Positions 55,086 to 61,491 of a stretch of DNA of 64,000 bases are shown piece by piece. Position numbers and translations under genes: made by a program. Position 1 is the first letter of the stretch. Every line of letters begins with the position of its first letter. Location of the stretch: contig NZ_CP009501.1 of the NCBI RefSeq assembly GCF_000969885.1, positions 248,001 to 312,000 of the forward strand. The letters are read 5' to 3'. The stretch comes from Methanosarcina thermophila TM-1. GTDB lineage: Archaea > Halobacteriota > Methanosarcinia > Methanosarcinales > Methanosarcinaceae. The notes under the pieces are model-generated. The model saw only the letters and a list, made by a program, of their open reading frames with translations, did no database searches and was not told the DNA's origin.

Positions 55086-56888
55086 TCAGTATATAGGTGC
55101 ACTATCTCCTGGCGGTACCTGTGTATTATTTGCTTTGGATACCTGGGGACAGACATTGACTATAGAAGATTTGAAATCCGTACAGTTTTCATTGCTTACG
55201 GTCAGGTTAACTCTATAGCTCCCAGGTCTCGCGTATACATGTAGAGGGTTCCGCTCACTTGAATTTGTCCCATCTCCAAAAGTCCAGTACCATTTAGTCG
55301 CACCTTTTGACATGTCCGTAAATTTCACCGCATAAATGGGCTTGCTGCTGAAGTTTGCAGTAGGACATTTTGGTACTTCAGGACAGGTAGGACATGGACA
55401 CGTGGGACATGGCGGTTTTGGTACCGGAATAGCACACACACAATGTCCGGTTGGAACAGGAAGGCTTCTTGCAGGCGTTGTTGCTATAACGTTGTTGTTT
55501 ATCGTGTTAATTACCGTGATAGTATTGCTGTTAAGGTTTGTCACATGTGCTTCGTTTCCTATTACTGCAATACTGGCAGGATATTCTCCAACGTTAATTG
55601 TGCCTATAATATTGTTGTTTATTGTGTTAATTACAGTAACAGAATTACTGTTGGCGTTACAAACAAATGCTTTTGTTCCTGCAACTGCAATTCCGGTAGG
55701 ATATTCTCCAACATTAATTGTGCCTATAACGTTGTTGTTTATCGTGTTAATTACAGTTACAGTGTTGCTGTTAGCATTGGTCACATATGCATTTGTTCCT
55801 GCAACCGCAATTCCAGCAGGATTCTTCCCAACATTAATTGTGCCTATAACATTGTTGTTTATCGTATTAATCACAGTGACAGTATTGCTGTTGATATTGA
55901 CCACATATGCATTTGTTCCTGCGACTGCAATTCCAGAAGGATGCTCTCCAACATTAATTGTGCCTATAACATTGTTATTTATCGTGTTAATTACAGTTAC
56001 AGTGTTGCTGTTAGCATTGGTCACATACGCATTTGTTCCTGCAAATGCAATTCCAGCAGGATAATCTCCAACATTGATTGTGGCTTCAACACTGTTGTTT
56101 ACTGTGTTAATTACAGAGACAGTGTTGTTGTTAAGGTTAGTCACATACGCCTTTGTTCCATCTGGACTAACTGCAACTCCTCCAGTATCGGGACCAACAC
56201 TCAAATTGGTTGTAGTATTTGTTTCTTCGTTAATTACACTGATAGTACCATTAGTTTCGATTACCGGTGATATAATCTCTGGTATCGATAAATTCTCTGG
56301 TACGGTTATATTCTCATCTGGTACTGTTATGCTATCCCCTGATACTGTTACATTCACTGCCGGCTCTGTTATATTCACTTCTGGTTCTGTCACATTCACT
56401 TCAGGTTCGGTTATATTCACTTCAGGTTCTGTTACATTCACCTCTAGCTCTGTTATATTCACTTCTGGTTCTGTCACATTCACTTCAGGTTCTGTTGGCT
56501 CTGTGACATTTATCTCTGGCTCTGTTATATTGACTTCCGGCTCTGTTACAGTAGGTTCTGGTTCTGTTACATTCGCTTCAGGTTCTGTTACATTTACTTC
56601 AGGTTCGGTTACAGTAGGTTCTGGTGTTTCTGTTACAGTGGGTTCTGGTGCTTCTGTTACAGTGGGTTCTGGTGCTTCTGTTACAGCAGGTTCTGGTGCT
56701 TCTGTTTCTGTCTCGGTAGGCTCTGGTACAACTGGTTGTGTTTCTGTTTCATTATCTCCTGGTGCTGTAGGTAATAGCGTTTCTCCATTCTGTGCGGTTA
56801 CTGATACAGCTGTTACTGATAACAAAAAAAATGTCACCGTAAAAACGCTTAATATCTTCTGTATTCTGTCAAACTTTCGTTTCCCCAT
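55086..56888 (-). CDS. Secreted surface protein with VTEP stalk, YVTN beta-propeller and PKD domain
   Basis: A 600-aa exported protein. Signal peptide at about 1-33 (ILSVFTVTFFLLSVTAVSVTAQ). Residues 50-200 are a low-complexity stalk of VTEPEVN-type repeats. Residues 215-495 contain seven 40-residue YVTN repeats such as GTNAYVTNANSNTVTVINTI, forming a beta-propeller. A Cys/Pro linker (CPTCPCPTCPEVPKC) precedes a PKD domain with WYWTFGDGTNSSERNPLHVY. No C-terminal membrane helix is seen. The 120-base DNA repeats are nearly identical, suggesting recent expansion. Likely a cell-surface adhesion or S-layer-associated protein, as in other Methanosarcina. Confidence 0.92.
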   Translation of the reverse strand: MGKRKFDRIQKILSVFTVTFFLLSVTAVSVTAQNGETLLPTAPGDNETETQPVVPEPTETETEAPEPAVTEAPEPTVTEAPEPTVTETPEPTVTEPEVNVTEPEANVTEPEPTVTEPEVNITEPEINVTEPTEPEVNVTEPEVNITELEVNVTEPEVNITEPEVNVTEPEVNITEPAVNVTVSGDSITVPDENITVPENLSIPEIISPVIETNGTISVINEETNTTTNLSVGPDTGGVAVSPDGTKAYVTNLNNNTVSVINTVNNSVEATINVGDYPAGIAFAGTNAYVTNANSNTVTVINTINNNVIGTINVGEHPSGIAVAGTNAYVVNINSNTVTVINTINNNVIGTINVGKNPAGIAVAGTNAYVTNANSNTVTVINTINNNVIGTINVGEYPTGIAVAGTKAFVCNANSNSVTVINTINNNIIGTINVGEYPASIAVIGNEAHVTNLNSNTITVINTINNNVIATTPARSLPVPTGHCVCAIPVPKPPCPTCPCPTCPEVPKCPTANFSSKPIYAVKFTDMSKGATKWYWTFGDGTNSSERNPLHVYARPGSYRVNLTVSNENCTDFKSSIVNVCPQVSKANNTQVPPGDSAPIY

Positions 56889-60440: not shown

Positions 60441-60965
60441 TTATTTGCTGCATGTTGACTGTTTAGAGCTAATCGCGCAGTCGATCTGATCACAGGTCTT
60501 TCCGGAGTTGTCAGCGCAGCTTCTCTGGTCGCATGCCTGACCACATTCATCTACACAGTTTTCACAGCAGTCGCCTTCACAGTCTGCCTCGGTACAGTTT
60601 TCACAGCAGTCTCCTGTGCAGTTATCCAGACCGCAGACGTCTATACATTTATCACAGCAGTCGCCTTCACAGTCTGCCTCGGTACAGTCGTCACAGCAGT
60701 CTCCTGTGCAGTTATCCAGACCGCAGACGTCTATACATTTCTCGCAGCAGTCGCCTTCACAGTTTGCCTCGGTACAGTCGTCACAGCAGTCTCCAATGCA
60801 GTTTGATTTGTCGCAGCCGCCAAAGGACAGGCTGTTTAGATCACTGTAAGCAGGGGATTTCTCAGCTTGGCATGCTGAGGCTGTAAACATTCCTATAGTT
60901 AATAACATTAATGCAACAGAAACAGATGCTGTAATTTTCCAGATTGACTTTCTGTCAAAATCCAT
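60441..60965 (-). CDS. Secreted Cys-repeat protein, about 34 cysteines in 174 aa
   Basis: A signal peptide (WKITASVSVALMLLTIGMFTASA) leads to a mature protein built of 30-residue units like CTGDCCDDCTEADCEGDCC followed by DKCIDVCGLDN. Two full units and partial copies are present, each with nine cysteines, and a different Cys-rich tail (CGQACDQRSCADNSGKTC). I do not recognise the family. The acidic, Cys-dense pattern suggests metal binding or a disulfide-rich surface protein. The ATG at 60965 has AAGGAGGA upstream; the frame opens at 61022 without such a site. DNA repeats of 90 bases are almost identical. Confidence 0.85.
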   Translation of the reverse strand: MDFDRKSIWKITASVSVALMLLTIGMFTASACQAEKSPAYSDLNSLSFGGCDKSNCIGDCCDDCTEANCEGDCCEKCIDVCGLDNCTGDCCDDCTEADCEGDCCDKCIDVCGLDNCTGDCCENCTEADCEGDCCENCVDECGQACDQRSCADNSGKTCDQIDCAISSKQSTCSK

Positions 60966-61491
60966 TTTTTTCCTCCTTATTTGTTTACATTTGATCCGAG
61001 AATACTCGCAATCGAAAGCCAACTGGAGAAATTAAAATATAAACATACTTATTTCTATAGTGTATTATAAAAATCCAAAAAAGAGTTTAAAGCTTTGTAA
61101 CGCTTTATTTTCAAACATTAAAGATTACAAAATTATAGATTGTTTTTAACTCTGTTCAGAATCAATTTAAGACTAAACCTGAGGCTCTTAAGGAGGTTAC
61201 ATATTCTAAAATCTTGATACAGTCTTTTGCAATCGAACAAATCAGTCATATGGAGAATTTTTCTTCATACTGAATTCTTAAAGGTCAAAACTACAAAGGA
61301 AGCTTATATTTCATACGTTTAATGGAAAACTAGCATTAAAAATGCTCTTCATGCTATTTTTTTATAAAACCTGTCAGTTTCTCTCAAAATAATAAGAATA
61401 ACCTGATCAACATTTTCTGGAAATAGGAGAAGGAAATTATATGGAAATTATTATATTTGCAGTGCACTATTTCCTTCTCACTTGTTTACTT
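60966..61491. other. AT-rich intergenic region
   Basis: Contains the promoter of the Cys-repeat gene at its left end. No other gene, repeat or RNA is convincing. Confidence 0.4.

Follow-up and report, generated by a model that had tools for sequence, protein, structure and literature searches.

The window analysed here is a stretch of 64,000 nucleotides from the genome of Methanosarcina thermophila TM-1 (3,127,379 bases, single contig). Its minus strand encodes, from position 60965 to position 60441, a secreted, acidic, cysteine-rich repeat protein, referred to below as the Cys-repeat protein; the plus strand has no open reading frame (ORF) there. The following features were assigned to the locus.

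60441..60965, minus strand: coding sequence of the secreted acidic Cys-rich repeat protein, 174 residues with 34 Cys (syntenic conservation and dN/dS)
60546..60635, minus strand: repeat unit 3, residues 111–140 (translation, TRF and unit comparison)
60636..60725, minus strand: repeat unit 2, residues 81–110 (translation, TRF and unit comparison)
60726..60815, minus strand: repeat unit 1, residues 51–80 (translation, TRF and unit comparison)
60873..60965, minus strand: leader or signal peptide, residues 1–31, followed by Cys32 (alignments A1 and A3 and leader profile search; cleavage site by inspection)
60972..60978, minus strand: ribosome-binding site AAGGAGG, 6 bp before the ATG (direct reading)
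61037..61048, minus strand: TATA-box-like sequence GTATGTTTATAT (predicted from sequence)
61086..61105, minus strand: conserved upstream element with core AAGCGTTACAAAGCTTTAAA (three exact matches in the genome, none for the control)

The gene stands alone. An alpha/beta-hydrolase-like gene upstream on the same strand ends 526 bp away, and a CorC-like CBS-domain gene converges on the Cys-repeat gene from the other side (both named by inspection); the CorC-like neighbour aside, no metal transporter or metal regulator was recognised immediately beside the gene. The strong ribosome site remarked on in the first-pass annotation corresponds to the AAGGAGG 6 bp ahead of the ATG, and (A)GGAGG is kept in ten relatives of the gene.

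Translation confirmed the earlier description of 34 cysteines among 174 residues at a fixed spacing, with acidic residues filling the gaps. All of the Cys residues lie within the mature part of 143 residues, of which they make up 23.8%; it also contains 35 Asp and Glu (24%), eight Lys and Arg, two aromatic residues and neither His nor Met. The protein is the most Cys-rich among the window ORFs of at least 100 residues, for which the mean Cys content is 2.4%. Three units of 30 residues follow the pattern C-x4-C-x3-CC-x2-C-x4-C-x3-CC-x2-C-x3 and together hold six exact C-x3-CC-x2-C cores; when the mature sequence was shuffled, six or more cores arose in one of 100,000 trials. TRF reported a period of 90 bases with 2.8 copies and a match of 93%. 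Neighbouring units compared in frame are identical at 77/90 and 82/90 bases (best sliding value 87/90), so the term 'near-identical' used for these 90-base repeats in the first-pass annotation slightly overstates the identity. Units 2 and 3 match each other at 82 of 90 bases, whereas the closest match of each in the nearest relative reaches only 76/90 and 69/90, respectively; unit 1 is closest to a unit of that relative (81/90). This pattern is consistent with partial expansion or turnover of units within the M. thermophila lineage: the recent expansion that had been proposed fits units 2 and 3 and does not fit unit 1.

The placing of this exported acidic protein in no known family was also upheld. 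Ten members of the Cys-repeat family gave no match in Pfam or NCBIfam, and a search of PDB sequences gave nothing convincing; matches at E values of 0.02 and 0.31 were set aside, as they look compositional. AlphaFold2, given ten repetitive sequences as input, returned no confident fold (mean pLDDT 40), a low confidence that can perhaps be a mere effect of that input.

A first scan of genome contigs gave no match, and a profile scan named five Methanosarcina contigs, with M. spelaei and Methanosarcina sp. MSH10X1 among the relatives named. An ortholog or close relative was found in 11 other Methanosarcina genomes. For nine of these 11 relatives the flanking hydrolase and/or CorC-like genes lie beside the gene as far as the contig reaches; genome G104 has neither neighbour in the stretch examined, and the relative in G102 is a more distant paralog on a 4-kb contig. 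Repeat number, the comparison of which had been proposed in the first-pass annotation, does differ, between species: the mature parts of the relatives span 71–246 residues and contain from two to 11 cores, the G102 paralog, with none, excepted. Outside the genus only weak leader-bearing relatives were found, in one other genus of the same family (G006 and G008). A phylum-level match in G500, a CYDSCYDxCYDSC-type repeat without the leader, was judged to be convergent, and a weak match in the M. thermophila genome itself (at 1011442; E value 0.02) was rejected as a relative.

For the ortholog pair G078/G103, which are of equal length, dN is 0.028 and dS is 0.095 (dN/dS of about 0.29), which supports a real gene that appears to be under purifying selection in this pair. 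A remnant alone is left between the neighbour genes in G076, and several Methanosarcina genomes are without the gene. Such losses, together with the wide variation in repeat number, are what might be expected of a largely dispensable low-complexity protein in which slippage expands the repeats under a retained leader and promoter; given the purifying selection in the ortholog pair, and with promoter, leader and Cys density all kept across the genus, we consider this explanation very unlikely.

Between two orthologs, four of 54 Cys sites and 11 of 161 other mature sites have changed, and odd numbers of Cys occur in several relatives (41, 29, 63 and 37). As Cys changes about as often as other sites and the counts may be odd, it is thiol density that is kept and not a fixed pairing, so that Cys density is conserved more than each individual Cys. 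That Cys residues can be gained and lost, and that their number may be odd, speaks against a single fixed intramolecular disulfide fold. In composition the protein resembles metallothioneins, with a Cys content within the 20–30% range, CC and CxxC motifs, few aromatics (two of 143 residues in the mature part) and little fold expected in the metal-free state. It differs from them in being exported, in being acidic and not Lys-rich, and in its variable repeat number, and its metal binding is a prediction only; since no known metallothionein model was matched in Pfam, NCBIfam or the PDB sequences, it was not filed as a metallothionein. The Vanabins (Vanabin2; PDB entry 1vfi) are likewise small and Cys-dense, and the weak profile match to them (E value 0.31) is not significant and probably compositional.

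The Cys-repeat protein might instead be an iron–sulfur or thiol redox scaffold moving electrons at the cell surface, a role in keeping with a Cys-dense exported protein in a genus that exchanges electrons outside the cell (PMC6315138). Its sequence contains neither a ferredoxin-like CxxCxxC nor a haem-binding CxxCH motif (there is no His), it has no Pfam match and no recognised redox gene adjoins it, and a variable number of Cys residues fits fixed clusters poorly. No support for electron transfer by the Cys-repeat protein was found in this analysis, and such a role seems highly improbable.

The upstream element was found by aligning the upstream regions of the relatives, in which the block is kept even in the G102 paralog; the element and the sharing of the leader go beyond the first-pass annotation. 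A 20-mer, AAGCRTTAYAAAGCTTTAAA, lies about 120 bp upstream of the Cys-repeat gene within a wider element at about 61086–61125 that includes an upstream box, ATCTTT. The 20-mer occurs exactly at three sites in the genome (reversed-pattern control, 0), which precede the Cys-repeat gene, the gene for a secreted PKD protein of 143 residues and that for a CDCES-type acidic Cys-rich repeat protein (339-residue ORF). At one mismatch or fewer, 46 element sites were found in 21 of 31 genomes of the genus (control, 0); in the rest of the family the element is nearly absent, the 81 genomes from other genera having only two sites. The spacing from element to TATA-like box is 57–58 bp in most of the family promoters (57 bp from the exact 20-mer in the case of the Cys-repeat gene) and 98 bp in the CDCES-type family. 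A site in front of a cation-efflux-like gene (L120, in G090) was judged to be a chance occurrence because the rest of the promoter is missing.

At four further loci (L105, at 1085557–1085576 on the minus strand of the M. thermophila genome, and L116, L134 and L141) the element and a TATA box at 58 bp are followed by no consistent ORF, and the region after them holds conserved sequence with a AAAGATCTTT inverted repeat. This region is a possible candidate for a non-coding RNA; a search of Rfam with the locus gave no match. A looser element with three mismatches, accompanied by a TATA-like box, lies upstream of a 137-residue ORF in the M. thermophila genome (L108, at 2600523); this ORF may resemble DUF1699.

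The signal peptide claimed for the protein was recognised by inspection as a signal-peptide-like leader, MDFDRKSIWKITASVSVALMLLTIGMFTASA, followed by Cys32. This Cys is kept in all ten aligned members, one of which has an extra residue before it. The A-S-A-C32 junction fits the relaxed form of the lipobox [LVI][ASTVI][GAS]C and not the strict form (Ala at −3); cleavage by signal peptidase I at an AxA site would agree with it as well. The protein may be released freely rather than anchored at the surface.

Conservation is much stronger in the leader than in the mature part, and unrelated secreted proteins share the leader. A search with profile A3, made from the first 31–34 residues of several element-bearing families, retrieved from the genome exactly the three genes picked out by the element search and no others (Cys-repeat gene, E value 5.1e-18). 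As A3 contains the leaders of these three genes, their recovery is partly by construction; what is independent in the agreement is the absence of a fourth gene from the A3 results, together with the blindness of the element search to the leader. A search with the leader of one relative alone also brought up the PKD gene along with the Cys-repeat gene. Of the 46 element sites in the genus, 35 precede a gene with the leader (0.003 expected by chance). Fifteen leader loci were re-read: 14 without a site at one mismatch or fewer (eleven more such leader genes were left out) and, as a positive control, G089, in which the site is exact. In twelve of the re-read loci the element has two or three mismatches and lies 131–193 bp before the ATG; in G099 it has five mismatches, and G086 has no element above the shuffled controls.

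A conserved leader before a divergent and often Cys-rich mature part is also characteristic of the conotoxin superfamilies, but the Methanosarcina proteins are archaeal and much larger, with unrelated PKD domains among their passengers and a common upstream element. This same architecture might point to a rapidly evolving, effector-like secreted family that acts on other microbes in the manner of venom or defence peptides. With purifying selection in the best-compared ortholog pair (dN/dS of about 0.29), members of several hundred residues at the largest and PKD and Ig companions typical of structure, we regard this as very improbable.

Downstream of the element sites are the Cys-repeat, CDCES-type, small PKD and Big_9-like families, a family of 260 residues with 44 Cys and a family with an RDRLRDGSC repeat. 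The CDCES/CDxxDC-type acidic Cys-rich secreted protein of M. thermophila (L104, at about 2323800–2324966 on the minus strand; 339-residue ORF) has a repeat unrelated to that of the Cys-repeat protein, the same type of leader and an exact upstream element, and its relatives reach several hundred residues. The PKD protein of this genome also has the leader and promoter element in common with the Cys-repeat gene. The Big_9-like bacterial-Ig proteins (L123, L126, L129, L138, L142, L146 and L147; 126–135 residues, 14–19 Cys) have the element and a different leader. Many of their Cys residues are invariant across the seven members and could be paired. The two members scanned matched Pfam Big_9, one with an E value of 1e-6 and the other with 3e-4, a match slightly below the Pfam cut-off, and a model (pLDDT 74.5) is an Ig/cadherin-like sandwich for which the best PDB matches are adhesin domains. 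The PKD and Big_9/cadherin-like companions have predicted folds typical of adhesins. The Methanosarcina surface proteins built with PKD and similar repeats (PMC2447325, available in part) are, like the Cys-repeat protein, secreted and built of repeats in the same genus; the available part makes no mention of cysteine or of a Cys-rich repeat in them.

That the Cys-repeat gene belongs to a Methanosarcina-centred secreted set is well supported at the level of sequence, by a common promoter element and a mostly homologous leader of 31–32 residues before differing mature parts; among these are at least four different Cys-bearing repeats, besides a small PKD domain and a bacterial-Ig domain studded with Cys. 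Co-regulation of the element-bearing genes, which one factor would switch on together, is a well supported prediction. The leader and promoter may be common only through old duplication, in which case co-regulation would not be proven; in favour of a function are the fixed spacing of the element and the fact that it also stands ahead of genes with other leaders and of an apparent non-coding transcript.

Given the PKD and Ig/adhesin-type companions, we infer that the products would be parts of an extracellular matrix. Less surely, the Cys-repeat protein would be mostly unfolded until metal is bound, its dense Cys thiolates, helped by Asp and Glu, would bind iron-sulfide species or metal ions of the soft or borderline class, and within the matrix it would hold metal or be cross-linked by it. 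More repeats would mean more capacity for metal, which would leave copy number free to drift. To the explanation as a whole, a co-regulated secreted set that is probably part of the matrix or envelope and whose Cys-repeat member is predicted to be a metal-holding or cross-linked matrix component, we assign a probability of roughly 0.45.

The serious rival to the metal–thiolate reading is a disulfide mesh: inter- and intramolecular disulfides formed after export would harden the aggregate matrix into a cross-linked coat, perhaps on contact with oxygen. Several unrelated many-Cys extracellular modules stand under one promoter element, and the Cys-studded Ig family keeps many Cys residues invariant in seven members, as fixed pairs would. 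Methanosarcina belongs to a group of strict anaerobes, however, in which surface thiols would tend to remain reduced, and the Cys-repeat family is often odd in Cys count and does not preferentially keep its Cys positions; we therefore hold a coat of this kind to be rather unlikely, if far from negligible. Metal–thiolate binding is the chemistry that we infer in preference to a unique disulfide fold, from the Cys density without fixed positions, the odd counts, the acid-rich and low-aromatic composition and the anaerobic host, and it is the least certain part of the explanation. A bolder proposal, which we think doubtful, is that element and leader form a cassette for swapping mostly Cys-rich extracellular domains, that these domains together form a thiol-rich, metal-linked matrix of a kind so far undescribed in archaea, and that the common regulator would also drive the possible non-coding RNA.

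In the literature searched on Cys-rich secreted proteins of Methanosarcina, no description of the Cys-repeat family was found. Two sources, each available in part, are circumstantial and do not name it there: in M. barkeri the source of Fe/S affects the PKD surface proteins (PMC10846266), and a larger number of Cys-rich proteins was found in Methanococcus voltae grown on pyrite (PMC9431491). According to PMC6315138, it is not known through which contacts at its outer surface M. barkeri carries out direct interspecies electron transfer; the wider matter is how Methanosarcina forms electrical, mineral and cell–cell contacts. Searching a genome for the promoter element narrows the candidate surface proteins to a short list, mostly Cys-bearing, and gives a handle on when and why they are made; through this undescribed secreted group, a hidden part of the outer coat of methane-producing archaea becomes testable.

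The window also encodes, at 55086–56888 on the minus strand, a secreted protein of 600 residues that combines TEPEVNVTEPE repeats with beta-propeller repeats of the YVTN type and is PKD-like at its C-terminus (by inspection); it has a syntenic relative in G093.
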